In this document: piece after piece, positions 10,315 to 34,507 of the stretch | Numbering within the stretch: the first letter of the stretch is position 1 | How the letters are laid out: each line of letters starts with the position of its first letter | Origin: a virus | DNA: 34,507 nucleotides | Direction: 5' to 3' (one strand) | Virus record (IMG/VR): IMGVR_UViG_3300042391_000071 | Coordinates: 1 to 34,507 of that record | Position numbers and translations under genes: made by a program | Notes under the pieces: model-generated | Databases searched by the model: none | Told to the model about the DNA's origin: nothing | The model's input: only the letters and a program-made list of their open reading frames with translations

Positions 10315-10518
10315 ATGGATAGCAAAATATTAGCAGCAGTTATAGAAGATATGCGAAGCCGTGAGCAAGTAGGGAAAGTTAAGTACGGAACTACAATGGA
10401 CAGAGAAGATTTAAGCACAGGGCAATGGATAACGCATTTGAAGGAAGAGCTGCAAGACGCTATTTTATATTTAACCAAACTCGAAACTATACACAATGCA
10501 CCTCAAAAAGATATTTAG
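10315..10518 (+). CDS. Small MazG-like (all-alpha NTP pyrophosphohydrolase-type) protein
   Basis: This 67-residue protein starts directly after the exonuclease stop. It contains KYGTTMDREDLSTGQWI and HLKEELQDAILYLTKLE. The EExxDA pattern matches the Mg-binding helix of MazG-like nucleotide pyrophosphohydrolases, which hydrolyse NTPs or dNTPs to monophosphates. It is shorter than a complete MazG domain, as in many phage versions, so activity is uncertain. Confidence 0.65.
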   Translation: MDSKILAAVIEDMRSREQVGKVKYGTTMDREDLSTGQWITHLKEELQDAILYLTKLETIHNAPQKDI

Positions 10519-14457: not shown

Positions 14458-15058
14458 TCAAAACCTTATTTATTTGATGCAGCTTGTAGGCATTAACAAT
14501 CCTGGCGAAGTTAAGTTAGCGATTTTAGAGGATTGGATAAGAACTCAATACGGAGGCTTTACAATAAACGAGGTTAAAGTAGCGTTTAAGCAAATGGTAG
14601 CTAATGACTTCATAGACCATTACCAAAATTTTAGCCCGGCTTATTTTAGTCAGGTTATGGATAGATACAAGAAAAAAGCAAACGAAGTACGCAAAATGAT
14701 ACCACAGGAACGAGAACAAGCAATACCACATTTGACTGATTTAGAGATAATTGATTACAGTTACCAGGAGTATAAAGTTTTAGAAAATAGAACTTTTGAC
14801 AAATTGTTTAACCCTTTATCAGTATTTACAAAGCTGCATAATTCTGGCATTAAGACTTGGTCAAAAGAAGACGGAGCAGTTGCTAAAAAGAAACTAATGG
14901 AAATCATTAACTACAAGGCTAATAAAATGGATATAATCAGCGCAAAGCAGTACAGAGACGAATGGACTGAACAATGGTTAAAGAACCAAGCACGAGCCGT
15001 AGCCGTAGCTTTATTTTTTGAGGAACAAATTTTACAAAACAAAACCACATTCAAATGA
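14405..15058 (+). CDS. Putative replication protein downstream of the initiator (helicase-loader position)
   Basis: From the ATG at 14405 this is 217 residues. An earlier in-frame ATG at 14300 gives 252 but would overlap the upstream gene by 158 bases; GGAG precedes the chosen ATG by five bases. It contains LMQLVGINNPGEVKLAILED, YGGFTINEVKVAFKQM and FSPAYFSQVMDRY, a pattern common to Bacteroidetes phage proteins next to initiators. No Walker motif is visible, so it is not a clear DnaC-type ATPase. A helicase-loading or primosome role is inferred from position. Confidence 0.6.
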   Translation: MTAFSGERVRNLNSIIFNQNLIYLMQLVGINNPGEVKLAILEDWIRTQYGGFTINEVKVAFKQMVANDFIDHYQNFSPAYFSQVMDRYKKKANEVRKMIPQEREQAIPHLTDLEIIDYSYQEYKVLENRTFDKLFNPLSVFTKLHNSGIKTWSKEDGAVAKKKLMEIINYKANKMDIISAKQYRDEWTEQWLKNQARAVAVALFFEEQILQNKTTFK

Positions 15059-15810
15059 CACATGGAAGTTTATTTAGCGGAATAGGTGGCTTTGATTTAG
15101 CAGCAGAATGGTGCGGATGGGAAAACGTATTTCATTGCGAATTCGATAATGAAAAAATTAAACATCTTAAAAAAAACTTCCCAAAATCTATATCTTATGG
15201 AGACATTACCCAAACAGATTTCTCTATTTACAGAGGAAAAATCGATATCCTTACAGGAGGCTTCCCTTGCCAAGATGCAAGTATTGCAAAGCAACACGGT
15301 AAAGGTCAGCAAGGGTTACAAGGTGGCAGAACAAAGCTCTTTTATGAAATGTGCAGAGCAATCAATGAAATTAGACCAAAGTTTATTGTTGCCGAGAACG
15401 TATCAAATATTCTTAAAACTAACAGAGGGGAAGACTTTACAGCAATACTCACCGAATTATCCTCAATGGGGTATAATGCAGAATGGAGAATTTGTAGAGC
15501 GTCAGAAATCGGTGCGCCCCATCACCGTGCAAGGTTGTATTTGGTTGCTTACCCCATTAGCATCAGATTATTACCGAAACAAACTTTCTTTTCCTATGTA
15601 TCAGAAGAGACATCACCGTTCACCTGGAAGCCTTCCGGAACAGTTGTACAGATTAGTAGGGGCTATTCCTGGAATACTGAACCCCCAATTTTATGCTTGG
15701 ATAATGGGTTACCCACTAAATTGGTTACAAGACAGTTACACGGATACGGAAACGCAATAGTACCACAGATAGCTTATAGAATTTTCAAAAGTATTTCTCA
15801 ATATCAATAA
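15055..15810 (+). CDS. dcm: DNA cytosine-5 methyltransferase (Dcm family)
   Basis: This 251-residue protein has the ordered motifs of C5 methyltransferases: motif I SLFSGIGGFDLA (residues 5-16), motif IV GGFPCQD with catalytic Cys72, motif VI AENVSNI, motif VIII GAPHHRARLYLVA, and motif X HGYGNAIVPQIAYRIF near the end. The enzyme transfers a methyl group from SAM to C5 of cytosine, probably shielding phage DNA from host restriction. The target-recognition region is short. The ATG overlaps the upstream stop by four bases. A second long open frame lies inside it (15149-15760). Confidence 0.92.
   Translation: MTHGSLFSGIGGFDLAAEWCGWENVFHCEFDNEKIKHLKKNFPKSISYGDITQTDFSIYRGKIDILTGGFPCQDASIAKQHGKGQQGLQGGRTKLFYEMCRAINEIRPKFIVAENVSNILKTNRGEDFTAILTELSSMGYNAEWRICRASEIGAPHHRARLYLVAYPISIRLLPKQTFFSYVSEETSPFTWKPSGTVVQISRGYSWNTEPPILCLDNGLPTKLVTRQLHGYGNAIVPQIAYRIFKSISQYQ
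15149..15760 (+). CDS. Overlapping gene nested in the cytosine methyltransferase (+1 frame)
   Basis: A 203-residue open frame lies entirely within the methyltransferase gene. Its second half is not random: YSPNYPQWGIMQNGEFVERQ, WLLTPLASDY, RHHRSPGSLPEQLY and GILNPQFYAWIMGYPLNWLQ. I know this order of phrases (PxWGMMxNG, LLPTPxASD, GSLxE, LNPxFxEWMMGFPxxW) from proteins annotated beside or within phage cytosine methyltransferases. Upstream, EASLAKMQVLQ also fits their N-terminal half. The host frame keeps motifs VIII and X over the same bases. It could be an accessory or target-recognition protein. Translation is not proven, and the first 60 residues may be shadow. Confidence 0.5.
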   Translation: MKKLNILKKTSQNLYLMETLPKQISLFTEEKSISLQEASLAKMQVLQSNTVKVSKGYKVAEQSSFMKCAEQSMKLDQSLLLPRTYQIFLKLTEGKTLQQYSPNYPQWGIMQNGEFVERQKSVRPITVQGCIWLLTPLASDYYRNKLSFPMYQKRHHRSPGSLPEQLYRLVGAIPGILNPQFYAWIMGYPLNWLQDSYTDTETQ

Positions 15811-20645: not shown

Positions 20646-20863
20646 GAAAGTTATGGGCTATATGGTTTATCCTAACACATAAGGCTTACTTTGTTGCAGT
20701 ATGTAAGACAGGTATGAATGGAGATGATATGACAACCATAGGCAACTACACCTATGCGATGGCAGAAACTTTAATCAATAAGCACATAGCAGACGTAGAC
20801 ACTTACTTAGATCAAGAAGACGCAATAGACGAAGCAAACGATATAATAAACGGAATACTATGA
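20642..20863 (+). CDS. Hypothetical protein
   Basis: This 73-residue protein (MRKLWAIWFILTHKAYFVAV start) has a hydrophobic N-terminal 20 residues that could be a membrane anchor or a buried strand. An acidic helical end follows (NKHIADVDTYLDQEDAIDEA). The TTIGNYTYAMAETLINKH phrase occurs in similarly placed proteins of related phages. ATGA overlaps on both sides place it firmly in the packaging operon. No function is known. Confidence 0.6.
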   Translation: MRKLWAIWFILTHKAYFVAVCKTGMNGDDMTTIGNYTYAMAETLINKHIADVDTYLDQEDAIDEANDIINGIL

Positions 20864-21936
20864 TACAAAACGTACCAATCAACACAGTTAAAGCAAACCC
20901 TAACAACCCTAGGATAATTAAAGACGATAAGTTTGCAAAGCTCGTAAAGTCAATTAACGAGTTCCCTCAGATGCTTAACCTTAGACCTATTGTAGTTAAT
21001 GACGATATGGTTGTGCTTGGTGGTAATATGAGATTAAAGGCTTGTAAGGAAGCCGGACTTAAAGAGATACCGATTATCAAAGCAAGTGAATTAACCGAAC
21101 AGCAGCAAAAGGAATTTATAGTTAAAGACAACGTAGGCTATGGCGAGTGGGATTGGAACGACTTAGCTAATAATTGGGATGAGCAGGAGTTAATAGATTG
21201 GGGGTTAGACATACCCGGCTTTGATGCAGAAGTTATAGAAGCTGAGGAAGATGACTTTGCAGTTCCAGACGGAGGGATTGAAACGGATATAGTATTAGGA
21301 GATTTATTTGAGATAGGGGAACACCGATTGCTTTGTGGGGATAGTACGGATATTGAAAAGGTAGAACTTTTAATTAAAGGAGATAAATGTAACTTACTTA
21401 CCGACCCACCATATGGTATTAAAGCAAATAAACAAACACTTGGTACAGGTAAAAAGCAATTTCATAGAGGCGAAGATTGGGATAACGAAGTGCCTGACTT
21501 TTTTTATATTTTAGCTTTAATAGACCAAGCTATTATTTGGGGTGGTAATTATTTTACAAATAGACTTGATGTAACTAATGATTGGTTATGTTGGCATAAA
21601 AAAAATGACGGATTAAGTTTTAGTGAATTTGAATTAGCTTGGTCAAATGTTGGAAAAAATTGTAGATTATTTTCTCACCATTGGGGTGGCGAGGAGAAGA
21701 TGCACCCTACTATGAAACCAATCAAGGTAATGGAATGGTGTATATCATTTTTAGATGAGAAGCCAATTTTAGATATTTTTAGTGGTTCTGGTTCAACAAT
21801 GGTTGCTTCACATCAATTAAAAAGGAAGTGTTACGGAATGGAACTCGACCCTAAATATTGCCAAGTTATAGTAGACAGGATGCGTAAACTTGACCCAACA
21901 TTAGTTATTAAAAAGAACGGGTTACCTTTGGAATAA
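20860..21936 (+). CDS. ParB/sulfiredoxin-like domain fused to N6/N4 DNA methyltransferase
   Basis: This 358-residue fusion has residues 1-100 as a ParB-type N-terminal domain (NPNNPRIIKDDKFAKLVKSI, LRPIVVNDDMVVLGGNMRLK, with GGNxR). The rest is an amino-methyltransferase with DPPYGI at 182-187 (catalytic motif IV) and FSGSGST at 307-313 (SAM-binding motif I), followed by CYGMELDPKYC. Motif IV preceding motif I marks the beta class. It methylates adenine N6 or cytosine N4. Near the terminase genes, such fusions may mark phage DNA for protection or packaging. Confidence 0.9.
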   Translation: MIQNVPINTVKANPNNPRIIKDDKFAKLVKSINEFPQMLNLRPIVVNDDMVVLGGNMRLKACKEAGLKEIPIIKASELTEQQQKEFIVKDNVGYGEWDWNDLANNWDEQELIDWGLDIPGFDAEVIEAEEDDFAVPDGGIETDIVLGDLFEIGEHRLLCGDSTDIEKVELLIKGDKCNLLTDPPYGIKANKQTLGTGKKQFHRGEDWDNEVPDFFYILALIDQAIIWGGNYFTNRLDVTNDWLCWHKKNDGLSFSEFELAWSNVGKNCRLFSHHWGGEEKMHPTMKPIKVMEWCISFLDEKPILDIFSGSGSTMVASHQLKRKCYGMELDPKYCQVIVDRMRKLDPTLVIKKNGLPLE

Positions 21937-24496: not shown

Positions 24497-25185
24497 CTTG
24501 GAACGAATTAACAGTTTGGCAGTACCAACAAATCTATCCAATAGTTACTAAGCCTGAGAAGGATTGGACTAACTTAGATGTAGAAAGTAAGCTAGTAGGC
24601 ATAATCTACAACCTTACAGACACTCAGGTGGATAGCTTGACTATTCAGCAGTTCAATAATCTAAGGGGTACACTCAGCTTCTTAGACGATAAGATAGAAG
24701 GTAAGCCGGTTAAGTACACACAAGTAAACGGAAAGCGTTATAGGTTTATCTATGATGTTCAGCAGATCAAAGCAGCCAGATACATAGAGAGCAAAGTATT
24801 TAGCACCGACTTAGTTGGTAACCTGCACAAGTTAGCAGCCTCAATGGTTATGCCTCAGCGTAGGACTTGGTACGGCAAATGGGTAGATGAGAAGTACGAT
24901 GCAGCCAAGCATAGCGATTATGCAGCAGACCTACAAGCCTCTAACTTTATGCACATCTATCAATCGGTTGTTTTTTTTTATCAAGTATACAGAAATTGGA
25001 TAGAAGTTTCTCAGGCTTATTTGATACAGGAAATGATGGCGAAGGGAATGACACCGGAATTAGCACAAGAGGCGGTTCAAATTTTATGCAGCAGTTTGGA
25101 TGGCAATATTGTGCCAAATCTGTTGCCGACCACGAAAATATCACAGTTGATGAAAGCTATGAGCTTACAACAATCCAATTCTTAA
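24493..25185 (+). CDS. Tail assembly chaperone, gpG-like
   Basis: This 230-residue protein (MTWNELTVWQYQQIYPIVTK start) has FNNLRGTLSFLDDKIEGKPV and AARYIESKVFSTDLVGNLHK. Size, helical content, position before the tail genes and a frameshift site near its 3' end resemble the gpG partner of lambda's G/GT pair, which chaperones the tape measure during tail assembly. The unshifted C terminus (QAYLIQEMMAKGMTPELAQE onward) is also plausible protein. The ATG overlaps the preceding small frame by four bases. Confidence 0.65.
   Translation: MTWNELTVWQYQQIYPIVTKPEKDWTNLDVESKLVGIIYNLTDTQVDSLTIQQFNNLRGTLSFLDDKIEGKPVKYTQVNGKRYRFIYDVQQIKAARYIESKVFSTDLVGNLHKLAASMVMPQRRTWYGKWVDEKYDAAKHSDYAADLQASNFMHIYQSVVFFYQVYRNWIEVSQAYLIQEMMAKGMTPELAQEAVQILCSSLDGNIVPNLLPTTKISQLMKAMSLQQSNS
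24972..24978 (+). promoter_or_regulatory. -1 ribosomal frameshift site (T_TTT_TTT slippery heptamer)
   Basis: Nine consecutive T (24971-24979) are read in zero frame as GTT TTT TTT TAT. This places the heptamer T_TTT_TTT exactly in the X_XXY_YYZ register needed for a -1 slip. No strong stem or pseudoknot is obvious just downstream, so efficiency is unknown. Confidence 0.65.
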
Positions 25186-25250
25186 ATAGCCTATCCTACC
25201 TTAAAGCAAAAGCTGACTTCGATAAGGAGCAGCATAGAAAACTCAAATAA
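24978..25250 (+). CDS. -1 frame extension of the tail chaperone (gpGT-like T domain)
   Basis: After a -1 slip at 24972-24978 translation would read LSSIQKLDRSFSGLF and continue for about 90 codons to 25250. It passes through GGSNFMQQFGWQYCAKSVAD, HENITVDESYELTTIQ and FLNSLSYLKAKADFDKEQHR. FGWxY followed by TIxFLNxLSYLKAKA is a coherent helical domain resembling chaperone C-termini in related phages. It has no start of its own other than a weak TTG. The product would be about 252 residues fused to the gpG-like part. Confidence 0.65.
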   Translation, partial: LSSIQKLDRSFSGLFDTGNDGEGNDTGISTRGGSNFMQQFGWQYCAKSVADHENITVDESYELTTIQFLNSLSYLKAKADFDKEQHRKLK

Positions 25251-25311: not shown

Positions 25312-25980
25312 GTGAGTATATCAAGGGCACAAATAGAAGCATTAAGGAACGGCTTTATACAAAGTATAGGAAGCTCGGCATTTAGTGCAGTAAAGCCAGG
25401 AGAATTACCTGTTGTAGAGGAAACCCTTGCTTTGTATGGTAAGGCTTTCAATGATGCCTTAGTTAAGATATTAGACAAAGACAATATAACAAGCTCCGGC
25501 AGGTTAGCAGAACCGGCTTTGCCTATCATTACTAAGTTCGGCACAGGCTATGTTTTGAGCTTAGGTTATGCACCAGGAAGCGAAGCAGCTAAATACTATG
25601 ACTTTGTCAATAAAGGAGTTAAGGGTACTAAGAACGTAAAGGCAGATAGCAAAACACCCTACGCTTTTAAGAGCAGTAAGAAAGCCGTGCCGGTTAGTTC
25701 AATAGAAAAATGGTTAGGATATAACAAGCTCAAATCGGTATCGGTATCGAGGTACACAAGACTAGGAACTGAGAGGAAGGGAATAGAGGGCAAGAAGTCC
25801 TTAGCTTTTTTAATTGCCCGTAGCATACACAGGAAAGGTTTAAAATCTACACACTACTTTGACAGAGCAGTAGCTCAAATATTTAATAAAGAATTTATCC
25901 AAAATTTAGCAGTCGCATTAGGTGGCGATGTGCAAATTCAAATCAAACAAGCAGTCAATGGCAATAACAATAACAAGTAG
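25312..25980 (+). CDS. Putative tail completion/minor tail protein
   Basis: This 222-residue protein starts at GTG 25312 (no ATG nearby). It begins ISRAQIEALRNGFIQSIGSS. The middle, with YAPGSEAAKYYDFVNKGVKG and KTPYAFKSSKKAVP, resembles gp10/tail-completion proteins in keeping a conserved Tyr/Phe-rich loop. The C terminus ends KQAVNGNNNNK. It follows a terminator, so it must use its own promoter or readthrough. Function is inferred from its place among tail genes. Confidence 0.6.
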   Translation: MSISRAQIEALRNGFIQSIGSSAFSAVKPGELPVVEETLALYGKAFNDALVKILDKDNITSSGRLAEPALPIITKFGTGYVLSLGYAPGSEAAKYYDFVNKGVKGTKNVKADSKTPYAFKSSKKAVPVSSIEKWLGYNKLKSVSVSRYTRLGTERKGIEGKKSLAFLIARSIHRKGLKSTHYFDRAVAQIFNKEFIQNLAVALGGDVQIQIKQAVNGNNNNK

Positions 25981-27172: not shown

Positions 27173-29226
27173 TGATTAGCACAGAGATATACATAGAAGA
27201 GCAGAAGATTGATCTATTGCAAGACATATCTACTGAGTTCACTTATGCCATTGACGATGTAAGTGAGTTCGGTAGCCGCAATACTTCTTATAGCAAAACA
27301 ATTAGCATACCAGGAACGGCAAACAATAACCTTGTCTTTGGTTACATCTTCGAGCTTAACAATGCTAACTTCACAGACAACACCTTGCCGAACGTTGGCT
27401 ATAATTTCAACGTAACTAAACAAGCTAACTGCAAAATCTTTATTGACAAGGTGCAAATATTCAAAGGCACTTTAAGAATATTAGAGATAGTTATAGACAA
27501 AGAGACTATTGAATACCAATGCAGCGTAGTAGGAGAACTTGGTGGCTTTATTAATCAGCTAGGTAATTCACGTTTAGAAGATTTAGATTTTAGTGCTTAC
27601 AACCATACTTATAGCGTAGCAAATATTAGCAATAGTTGGGATAATGCCGGAGGCTCTGGTTACTACTATCCGCTTATTGATTACGGAAATGTTAGCACAG
27701 GAGTTAATGGAGTAGCCAAAAAGGACTTTCAATATACAACGTTTCGACCGGCTTTATATGTGAAGGAGTATATACAAAAGATATTTGCCGGAACAGATTA
27801 TACTTTTAACTGCTCGTTCTTTGATGAGGCTATATTTAACCGCTTGATAATACCGCACAACCAAACAAACATAACAACGTTAAATAATACAAGCCTCAAC
27901 GCAGCAGCGAAGCTAATAACTATAAACACCAATTTGAGTAACATTGTAGAATATACAATGGTAACGGCAGGTAACTTCACACTTGACGGCTTAGGTCAGT
28001 TATTTACTTATGGTTCTGGTGTAACAATTACAACTGATATAAATATTTTATTAATAGGTAACGTTACTTATTACAATCCACCGCTACCAAACTATTCTGT
28101 AATACTCTATAAGAATAATATAGAGATAGGCAGACAAGATTTTGATGCAAGTGTTAGCAGCTTTATGAACTGCCAATTTACAGTTAGCGGAGTTACTTTT
28201 GCTAATACTGACACAATGCAGGTGCAAATATCAGGCAACGGCATTATCCTTGCTATTACCGGTGGAGATATAGGTGTAACAACAAGCACCCCTACACAAG
28301 TGCAGGTAAACATAGGAGAAACAATTAAAGTTAATGACACTATTCCAAAAGGTATATTTCAAAGAGATTTCTTTTTGAGTATAGTTAAGATGTTTAACCT
28401 ATATGTATATGAGAATAAGTTTAATGACAAGGAGCTGGTTATTAGTCCGTATGTGGACTTCTATCCTGAGGTATCGGCTAATGCAGAAGATTGGACTAAT
28501 AAAATAGATAGAGCAAAGCCTTTAAGTATTAAGCCAATGAGTGAAATCAATGCCAGGTACTATAATTATAAGTTCAAGGCTGATAACGACTTCTATGGCG
28601 AGAACTACCGCAAAAAGTACACAGAAGGCTATGGAGATTTTATTTACGATACTGAGTTTGACTTTGTAAAAGAAACCGACACCTTAGAAGTTATATTTGC
28701 TGCCTCTACATTGTACCAAGCAACAGGGCAAGACAAAGTATTTCCGGCAATCTATAAGAAGTCAAATACTAATAATGCAGAGGATAGAATGGATAGCATT
28801 ATTCGTATAATGCAGACTAAGAAGATTACAAGTGTAGGCAGTTGGAATATTATGAATGGAGCAACTAATTTAGCATCTTATACAAGTTATGGTTATGCCG
28901 GACACTTAGATGACCCAATTAACCCTAATAACGATATAAACTTTGGCGCACCAAAAGAGCTACAATTTAGTCCTAACAGATACCCAAGCACAAACGTATT
29001 TAACGCTTATCATAGTCCTTATATTGCGGAGATAACAAGCAAGGATAGTAAGCTATTAACGTGCTTTGGTTTACTTGATATTATAGACATTTTCAACTTA
29101 GATTTTAGTAAGTATGTATATATAGACGGGGTTTTATTCAGGCTTAACAAAGTAGAGAACTTTAACCCTATGGAATACAACACTACTAAACTATCATTTC
29201 TTAAAGTAATAGAAACATCATACTAA
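27172..29226 (+). CDS. Large tail/baseplate protein (hub-like)
   Basis: This 684-residue protein begins MISTEIYIEEQKIDLLQDIS, then FTYAIDDVSEFGSRNTSYSK and ISIPGTANNNLVFGYIFELN. I recognise this start in tail genes of Bacteroidetes phages, probably as the baseplate or tail-tip hub. The C-terminal half contains FYGENYRKKYTEGYGDF and SKYVYIDGVLFRLNKVENF. It has one-base overlaps on both ends, so it is co-translated with its neighbours. The enzymatic or receptor role is unknown. Confidence 0.65.
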   Translation: MISTEIYIEEQKIDLLQDISTEFTYAIDDVSEFGSRNTSYSKTISIPGTANNNLVFGYIFELNNANFTDNTLPNVGYNFNVTKQANCKIFIDKVQIFKGTLRILEIVIDKETIEYQCSVVGELGGFINQLGNSRLEDLDFSAYNHTYSVANISNSWDNAGGSGYYYPLIDYGNVSTGVNGVAKKDFQYTTFRPALYVKEYIQKIFAGTDYTFNCSFFDEAIFNRLIIPHNQTNITTLNNTSLNAAAKLITINTNLSNIVEYTMVTAGNFTLDGLGQLFTYGSGVTITTDINILLIGNVTYYNPPLPNYSVILYKNNIEIGRQDFDASVSSFMNCQFTVSGVTFANTDTMQVQISGNGIILAITGGDIGVTTSTPTQVQVNIGETIKVNDTIPKGIFQRDFFLSIVKMFNLYVYENKFNDKELVISPYVDFYPEVSANAEDWTNKIDRAKPLSIKPMSEINARYYNYKFKADNDFYGENYRKKYTEGYGDFIYDTEFDFVKETDTLEVIFAASTLYQATGQDKVFPAIYKKSNTNNAEDRMDSIIRIMQTKKITSVGSWNIMNGATNLASYTSYGYAGHLDDPINPNNDINFGAPKELQFSPNRYPSTNVFNAYHSPYIAEITSKDSKLLTCFGLLDIIDIFNLDFSKYVYIDGVLFRLNKVENFNPMEYNTTKLSFLKVIETSY

Positions 29227-31001
29227 TGGCACAAGAGAACATAGGTATAAATATTAATGTAGAAGGCAATGCTAACCAATCATTAGGTACATTAAAAGCA
29301 CAGTTAAGAGAAGCAACGCAAGAAGTACAGGCTTTATCTGATAAGTTTGGTGCTACATCTAAGGAAGCGGTAGCAGCAGCCAAGAGAGCAGCAGAATTAA
29401 AAGATGCAATCGGAGATGCTAAAAGCTTAGTAGATGCCTTTAACCCAGATGCAAAGTTTAAAGCCTTAACATCTTCTCTTAGTGGAGTAGCCGGTGGTTT
29501 TGCAGCAGCACAAGGAGCTATTGCTTTATTCGGTGTTGAGTCAAAAGAAGTAGAAAAAGCTTTATTGCAGGTACAATCAGCAATGGCTTTATCGCAAGGC
29601 TTACAAGCAGTAGGAGAAAGTATCGATAGCTTTAAGCAATTAGGTACAGTAATTGCAAACAGTACAATATTCTTAAAGGCAAATGAATTAGCTAACAAAG
29701 CTACTGCATTTACTATGAGATTATTTGGTGTAAGTGTAGAGGCTACATCTGTTTCTTTTAAGGTTCTTAAAGGTGCTATTGCTGCAACAGGATTAGGTTT
29801 ACTTGTTGTTGCACTTGGAGAAATAGTTGCGGCATTTCAAAGTTATAGTAGTGCAGCAGAAAAGGCAGCAGAAAAACAAAAACAACTTAACGATACTATT
29901 TTAAAAGGAGCAAAAGTAGGATTAAAAGCAGAACAAGAGTTTTTAGCTAATAAAGAAAAACTTGACATTGCAAGAGCTAAGTCAGCAGGGGCAACTGAAA
30001 AACAAATATTTGATATTGAGCAAAGATTTAGAAAAGACAGAGCTGAGTCACAACAAAGATTTCTAAATGAAACAAAAAATGCTGATGTAGAAGGAGCTAT
30101 AAGTACAGCAGCAGAAATTAAAAAAATTAACACAGAAGTAGAAGTTGCAGAATTAGAATTTCAAGCTAAACAAGCAGCAGCAAGAAAAGCGAAAGCAAAA
30201 GAAACAGCCGATGCACTAGCAGAAGCAGAGTCAGCAAGAATTGAAAAGCAACTTGAAGACGAAAAAAGGCTAACAGAAGAATATTTAGCTGAGTATGACA
30301 AGAGAAGGAAAGATGCAGTAAATGCTAAAATTTTAACACAAAAAGAGATTGGGAAACTAGACCAAGAAGAAAGGTTAAGGCAGGAACAGGAGAACAATAA
30401 AATCTTTGATAATCAAATTTCATTACTAGGTAAAACAAAAAACTTTACTTTACAAGCTATTCAAACGCAACAAAAAGCGAATGAAGACGCAGCTAAAAAT
30501 ATAAACTCTGTAAATAAATGGTTAGCATCTGAGGATAAGAAAAGATTAGATGCAAAAGTTTCTGACACACAAAGTGCATTATTTTTACTTAGTGCAATAG
30601 TAGACCAGAATAGTGTAGCCGGAAAAGCTATTGCGGTTGCACAAGCAATCATTAATACTTATCAAGGTGCTACAAAGGCATTAGGTCAGGGTGGTGTTCT
30701 TGGTTTTGTAGGTGCTAGTGCGGTAATTGCTGCCGGTTTAATAAACGTTAAAAAGATTGTTAGCACAAATATTCCTTCTGCAAAGGGTACAGGAACAGTA
30801 GGTGGTGGAGCTTCTGCACCAAGCCTATCAGCAGGAGCACCAATAGCACCCCCACAACCACAAGCACAAACAACTACCTTAGATAATCAGACAATCAACG
30901 CAATAGGCAACCAAGCCGTTAGAGCTTACGTTGTAGAGAACGATGTAACGAGTAACCAACAACGTATCGCTGCTATAAGACAAAGGGCAAGGTTCGGTTA
31001 A
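29226..31001 (+). CDS. Tape measure protein
   Basis: This 591-residue, Ala/Lys/Glu-rich helical protein starts ENIGININVEGNANQSLGTL, then KAQLREATQEVQALSDKFGA. A hydrophobic segment (AATGLGLLVVALGEIVAAF, about residues 185-205) is followed by long coiled coils (about 215-420), then a second hydrophobic region VAQAIINTYQGATKALGQGG, VLGFVGASAVIAAGLINVKK. This layout is typical of tape measure proteins, which set tail length and carry the membrane-penetrating part. At roughly 0.15 nm per residue the tail would be about 90 nm. The C terminus is Pro/Ala-rich, then helical. Confidence 0.82.
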   Translation: MAQENIGININVEGNANQSLGTLKAQLREATQEVQALSDKFGATSKEAVAAAKRAAELKDAIGDAKSLVDAFNPDAKFKALTSSLSGVAGGFAAAQGAIALFGVESKEVEKALLQVQSAMALSQGLQAVGESIDSFKQLGTVIANSTIFLKANELANKATAFTMRLFGVSVEATSVSFKVLKGAIAATGLGLLVVALGEIVAAFQSYSSAAEKAAEKQKQLNDTILKGAKVGLKAEQEFLANKEKLDIARAKSAGATEKQIFDIEQRFRKDRAESQQRFLNETKNADVEGAISTAAEIKKINTEVEVAELEFQAKQAAARKAKAKETADALAEAESARIEKQLEDEKRLTEEYLAEYDKRRKDAVNAKILTQKEIGKLDQEERLRQEQENNKIFDNQISLLGKTKNFTLQAIQTQQKANEDAAKNINSVNKWLASEDKKRLDAKVSDTQSALFLLSAIVDQNSVAGKAIAVAQAIINTYQGATKALGQGGVLGFVGASAVIAAGLINVKKIVSTNIPSAKGTGTVGGGASAPSLSAGAPIAPPQPQAQTTTLDNQTINAIGNQAVRAYVVENDVTSNQQRIAAIRQRARFG

Positions 31002-33888: not shown

Positions 33889-34263
33889 GTGATAAGACTA
33901 AACAAGGGGCAAACCCAAAATATAATCCTTACCTTGACTGAGAAGCAGCTTTTAACAAGTCCGAACTATCTATTCATTTTTGAGAATAGAAGCACGAACA
34001 CGGACATCAAATTTGTAAGGCTAAACAACACAGACATAAGTGCTTACAAAGAAAGGTACAACGAGTTCACTATTGTTGTAAATAGCTTCTTTAATACGGC
34101 ATTAAACGGGCAATACACCTATACAATATACGAACAAGCAAGTACTACTAATACAGACCCGACAGGCTTAAACCTGCTAGAAACCGGCATAATGGAGCTA
34201 ACGGGAACTACTATATCATTCACAGAATACGAAACAACAAGCACATTCACAATTAGACAATAA
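33889..34263 (+). CDS. Putative virion protein upstream of the portal
   Basis: This 124-residue protein starts at GTG 33889 (IRLNKGQTQNIILTLTEKQL). It is beta-rich with FIFENRSTNTDIKFVRLN and QYTYTIYEQAST, like small beta-sandwich decoration or neck proteins. The stop overlaps the portal ATG (TAATG). Its last 13 codons also begin the window. There is no signal peptide. The role is inferred from location only. Confidence 0.6.
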   Translation: MIRLNKGQTQNIILTLTEKQLLTSPNYLFIFENRSTNTDIKFVRLNNTDISAYKERYNEFTIVVNSFFNTALNGQYTYTIYEQASTTNTDPTGLNLLETGIMELTGTTISFTEYETTSTFTIRQ

Positions 34264-34507
34264 TGGAAATACAAGTATTGACATTTGCGGAAGCAAAGCA
34301 ACCAGAATATAAAGAGAAAAAAGGCGAAGGTTATATGCAGTATGGTCAAAATAATGACTATCCTCAATACCTTTTAGACTTGTTTAACAAATCAGCCAAG
34401 CACAACGCTATCATTAGAGGCAAGGTGAACTACATTGTAGGGAACGGATGGGTAGGCGAAGAGGCTATTGTTAAGAAGGTAAATAGAGAAGAGACCTTAA
34501 ACGACCT
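34225..34507 (+). repeat. Right copy of the terminal overlap
   Basis: It is the partner of 1-283, offset 34,224. The first 127 bases and the last 83 are identical to the left copy. The silent differences suggest that the two ends come from slightly different members of one phage population. Confidence 0.9.
34263..34507 (+). CDS. Portal protein, 5' part of the second copy (partial)
   Basis: These are the first 81 codons of the portal gene, truncated by the window end. The nucleotide sequence matches 39-283 except for eight differences, all silent. It is the same gene seen again because the molecule is circular or permuted, not a duplicated portal. Confidence 0.9.
   Translation, partial: MEIQVLTFAEAKQPEYKEKKGEGYMQYGQNNDYPQYLLDLFNKSAKHNAIIRGKVNYIVGNGWVGEEAIVKKVNREETLND

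Follow-up and report, generated by a model that had tools for sequence, protein, structure and literature searches.

The window, that is, the whole 34,507-nucleotide stretch of viral DNA that was analysed, contains an open reading frame in which a run of nine T is followed by two open frames, its own and one displaced by -1 (Table 1). Codons 160-163 of frame 0 cover the run as GTT (24970), TTT (24973), TTT (24976) and TAT (24979), with T_TTT_TTT at 24972-24978 in the register of a -1 slip; this agrees with an earlier examination of the same DNA from its letters, here called the sequence-only reading. The translation agrees with it as well: the -1 frame, open from 24945 to 25250, encodes the peptides QFGWQYC and LKAKADFDKEQ. 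An AlphaFold2 model of the frame-0 product (pLDDT 81) has an alpha/beta fold with a long helix, residues 152-183, spanning the site.

Table 1. Position of the two-product gene, its candidate slip site and downstream genes in the window
Feature	Position	Strand	Basis or remark
Frame-0 ORF, short (G-like) predicted product, 230 aa	24493..25185	+	ORF list
Nine-T run, candidate slip site, GTT TTT TTT TAT	24971..24979	+	Sequence; 9 or 10 T in 401/401 distinct homologous sites
-1-frame extension, 90 aa plus stop, T-like helical domain (predicted)	24978..25250	+	Overlaps frame 0 up to 25185; extension in frame -1 in 601/603 loci
TAG closing the +1 frame, 8 codons past the run	25001..25003	+	Sequence
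Next gene, 222 aa, tail-completion/neck-like	25312..25980	+	phrog_29822
Tail tape measure protein, fourth gene downstream	29226..31001	+	PHROG tape-measure matches, best E 2.7e-5

Elsewhere in the window, the first 60 bases recur at 34225 and the last 60 at 224. The two ends of the record (1-283 and 34225-34507) thus repeat each other, though not as a single exact copy, which points to a genome of about 34.2 kb that is probably circular or circularly permuted and was opened beside the portal gene. A C5 cytosine methylase gene (15055-15810, plus strand) encloses almost the whole of a 203-residue open reading frame in a different frame (15149-15760, plus strand), which matches PHROG 1008 'DNA methyltransferase' (E 1.4e-9) and is possibly an overlapping gene. 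At 20860-21936 on the plus strand, a ParB-like N-terminal domain is fused to an N6/N4 DNA methylase domain.

No other A/T run in the window reaches nine. Base composition alone would make one such run unsurprising (0.91 expected per simulated window), so what gives the T9 weight is its conservation. Relatives were searched with degenerate peptide patterns and therefore without selection for TTT codons. The family grew from 63 loci at 25-99% identity to at least 572 relatives and then to further branches, and the final census comprises 612 loci, some of them the same contig fetched twice, with 401 distinct 180-nucleotide sites. Six loci that end before the site, or start at or inside it, are omitted. 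Nine T were found in 586 loci and ten T in 26; no run was shorter or interrupted, and T_TTT_TTT lies in register at every distinct site. The nearest 80 IMG/VR relatives all carry the T9 in an unchanged register, with an open -1 frame wherever the contig is long enough. The alignment of homologues proposed in the sequence-only reading therefore found the T run and both frames conserved. At one locus (L543), the -1 frame departs from the family sequence after ~20 residues, most likely through an indel in the contig. Three apparent nine-T sites with an in-frame FFF proved to be runs in leader DNA ahead of the start codon and were removed from the census. Two scans of GTDB genomes found no relatives, and no homologue was found in Polaribacter P12002L or Phocaeicola BV741P1.

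The codons at the site are restricted beyond the usage of the same genes. In 217 distinct sequences, all 434 Phe codons at the site are TTT, against 78% TTT and 22% TTC for upstream Phe, and Val just before the site is always GTT, against 39% GTT upstream. The commonest form of the site is nTT TTT TTT Tnn. In one clade, GGT, AGT, ACT, AAT or GCT stands ahead of the Phe pair and TTG or TTA behind it, again giving exactly nine T. On the tree, this register shift of the nine-T run is a single event in a single clade. Ten-T forms were gained several times; runs of seven or eight T never arose.

Cultured members of the family are found among phages of Nonlabens (Persicivirga). In phage P12024S, the T9 lies in gp38, directly after terminase, and the -1 frame enters gp39. 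The pairs gp38/gp39 of P12024S (L162, 23136-23830) and gp40/gp41 of P12024L (L165, 1947-2641) are annotated as two genes each, but each pair is most likely one gene with a slip site. They are homologous to the window's gene and share its T9 in the same register and its -1 extension; they differ in their annotation, in a short frame-0 tail and in having only ~17-19% identity to the window protein. By profile comparison, the window's frame-0 product is homologous to P12024S gp38 (Prob 96.2, E 2.4e-9), and the fused profiles of the window family and the gp38/gp39 family align over 234 columns (hhalign, Prob 98.1, E 6.9e-14). P12024S gp38 belongs to phrog_32199 and gp39 to phrog_38404, both PHROGs of unknown function. 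The window had been attributed to a phage of Bacteroidetes, and the phage is indeed related to phages of Flavobacteriia.

A fold search of a viral library with the frame-0 model, which matched P12024S gp38 (6.5e-9) and Flavobacterium phage 6H (5.8e-3), gave the lead to the Duneviridae. Their phrog_25418 proteins are encoded by one continuous ORF of 293-301 residues (Flavobacterium FPSV-F7 and laban6-1, Cellulophaga Ingeline). The fused gp38/gp39-family profile aligns with these proteins over 222 columns through the junction (hhalign, Prob 95.4, E 1.8e-8). The window family alone gave no significant profile match to the Duneviridae, so its link to them runs via the larger gp38/gp39 family. The Duneviridae genes thus resemble that family in the homology of the fused chain and differ in being single ORFs, in which a T9 run was looked for and was absent. 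A single frame holding both parts in relatives had been named as grounds for refutation. At long range there are such relatives, yet they speak for the finding, since the fusion is there the natural full-length protein. In phage 6H, gp10 is shortened (L384, ~10325-10370, minus strand) because its record has, between the gene's two parts, two bases more than phages FPSV-F7, 2A and 23T; the surplus bases are probably errors in T runs of the 6H record.

The substitution pattern was examined in 65 distinct relatives aligned without gaps. Variation falls on position 3 of frame 0 upstream of the site and on position 3 of frame -1 downstream. N/S ratios are 0.22 for frame 0 upstream and 0.09 for frame -1 over the part where it is the sole coding frame. 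Such a pattern is that of two coding frames that overlap and are linked by a -1 shift, with a predicted short and a predicted fused product. Together with the census it bears out the claim of a conserved programmed -1 transition at an all-T site, and such a transition, taken alone, is close to certain.

Two explanations that dispense with a slip were weighed. The -1 ORF could be a separate overlapping gene with its own start, and the P12024S annotation does begin gp39 at an internal ATG, as the window has an in-frame ATG at residue 37 of the extension (25086). However, ATG is absent from 157 of 400 distinct extensions and early ATG codons are mostly limited to one branch, so the lack of a good start noted in the sequence-only reading is true of the family at large. 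Moreover, the conservation of the extension starts right at the T run, ahead of 25086, and the Duneviridae read through the junction in one ORF. An independent start was rejected because it is not conserved, leaving a separate gene very improbable. Least credible of all is a frame break produced by sequencing or assembly error. Homopolymers are error-prone, and the record of 6H, a remote relative, appears to carry two extra bases, but the same run recurs in 401 distinct sites from many samples with both frames open, two cultured phages (P12024S and P12024L) carry it, and the substitution patterns show selection on both frames. Run length had been offered as a test for this error: fewer than nine T were never seen, and ten T only in the matching register. 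An assembly artefact is refuted by the 612-locus census. As judged from sequence comparison, then, both frames are coding, their junction is at the T run, the run has at least nine T, and the fused chain is natural in relatives.

The V-F-F-L junction is identical whether the ribosome or RNA polymerase slips. The sequence-only reading had called the event a frameshift, which stands for a programmed -1 transition; in the ribosomal sense it is no more than a possibility, as polymerase slippage fits the conservation of run length at least as well. Polymerase slippage, in which some transcripts would gain one U on the nine-T run and be translated normally into the -1 frame, is slightly favoured. 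What is kept is the length of the run and not only T_TTT_TTT: nine T are retained through the one-base register shift, and on the tree a tenth T is gained repeatedly while no run falls below nine. Nine T is the length of the polymerase's own RNA-DNA hybrid; for the bacterial enzyme, whose hybrid measures 9-10 bp, nine A or T suffice for efficient slippage in vivo (PMC5009743). At each of 400 distinct sites examined, the +1 frame meets a stop within 15 codons, which would fit a mixture of transcripts. Across 1147 other genes of related phages, T8, T9 and A9 are held to 0.07, 0.20 and 0.14 of the synonymous-codon expectation, whatever the register; the slippery register is avoided to no greater extent than either of the others, which speaks against the ribosome. 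Other genes of related contigs show a sharp step from A8 (0.79) to A9 (0.14 of expectation), and selection against runs appears at length nine in many bacterial genomes (PMC1088944). Against the polymerase, the flanking T's are explicable by hydrophobic or aromatic residues in both frames, the register shift is confined to one clade, and a search of the open-access literature (subscription papers lay outside it) found no report of polymerase slippage in a tail chaperone.

A ribosomal -1 frameshift, in which the P- and A-site tRNA-Phe would re-pair together on U_UUU_UUU, like those at the lambda G/T site, without a stimulatory structure, is possible but somewhat doubtful. The heptamer is in register at every site, phage tail genes provide precedent (PMC5009743), and protein constraint in two frames could by itself keep the flanking T's. 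On the other hand, selection on the heptamer alone would permit seven or eight T, which were never seen, and U_UUU_UUU is a poor ribosomal site in E. coli, far less shift-prone than A_AAA_AAG (PMC5009743). Nor is a downstream structure conserved, which likewise favours the polymerase: no conserved stem-loop was found across families and no compensatory pairs within the window family, and single-sequence folds did not beat shuffled sequences, apart from one at z -1.9. The site resembles programmed transcriptional slippage at runs of nine, as in Thermus thermophilus dnaX and IS elements, in its nine A/T of conserved length, its conserved shifted-frame extension and the quick stop in the other frame; it differs in being a candidate slip site of a phage gene, known from sequence. 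As regards the run, it falls in this class, with 9 or 10 T only and T9 in two registers.

The gene had been read as a tail assembly chaperone in the lambda G/GT arrangement, with the tape measure four genes downstream. Lambda-type G/GT chaperones bind the tape measure and the tail tube protein, are absent from the virion and are made at a ratio of about 30:1, and their gene lies between those of the major tail protein and the tape measure, directly upstream of the latter. The tape measure was found where stated, so three genes separate it from the two-product gene. The arrangement therefore holds for a short product and a -1-frame C-terminal fusion predicted from one start, for a slippery heptamer of the X_XXY_YYZ type in register, and for a place upstream of the tape measure in a structural operon of the phage, but not for direct adjacency to the tape measure. 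Further differences from lambda are the all-T site in place of G_GGA_AAG, a frame 0 that runs 61-69 codons past the site, and the lack of detectable sequence homology to the window proteins.

Pfam and PHROG searches gave no naming match for the window's two-product proteins, and a PDB fold search with both parts found no match. Tail assembly chaperone is the best guess at the role, because of the two-product design, the tail-completion-like next gene and the tape measure downstream; that identification stands on design and neighbourhood, the fold matches being weak. Of the best 50 viral fold matches, just two carry a functional name, and both are tail assembly chaperones (Foldseek E 0.08 and 0.64). 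The gene may be a real two-product gene of another kind, for example one that encodes a component of the neck or of tail completion and, in minor amount, a longer form of it. In P12024S it comes right after terminase, and in the window it precedes a gene whose P12024S relative matches phrog_5 'tail completion or Neck1' (E 4e-4), apart from the tape measure. Yet a short and fused pair with a C-terminal helical domain is the G/GT signature, the sole named fold matches are chaperones, and the homologue in Cellulophaga Ingeline sits between adaptor and tape measure, which makes a role outside chaperoning unlikely.

In the proposed mechanism, one start would yield two proteins, the frame-0 product of 230 residues and, after a slip on the nine-T run, a 252-residue fusion whose last 90 residues, contributed by the extension, would form a separate helical domain. 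By analogy, the two forms most likely act as gpG/gpGT do in lambda: short copies would sit on the tape measure in large number, and a few fused copies would bind the tail-tube subunit as well. Whether ribosome or polymerase slips, a programmed -1 transition that depends on T9 and yields two products for tail assembly is considered probable.

These results describe a large family of two-product phage genes that has so far had no name and of which no report was found in the open-access literature (subscription papers lay outside the search). Phages of this group are widespread; most are uncultured, and the cultured ones infect Flavobacteriia. The PHROGs 32199 and 38404, both of unknown function, would really be one gene, and relatives that do without a slip have the fused form as their normal full-length protein. 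Such genes are likely to escape annotation tools that look for a ribosomal site near the frame-0 stop. It is tentatively proposed that in this group of phages the proportion of short and fused tail chaperone is set by polymerase slippage at a nine-T run and not by ribosomal frameshifting; the cultured phages make it testable whether the stoichiometry of an assembly chaperone may be set by the polymerase rather than by ribosomal slippage.
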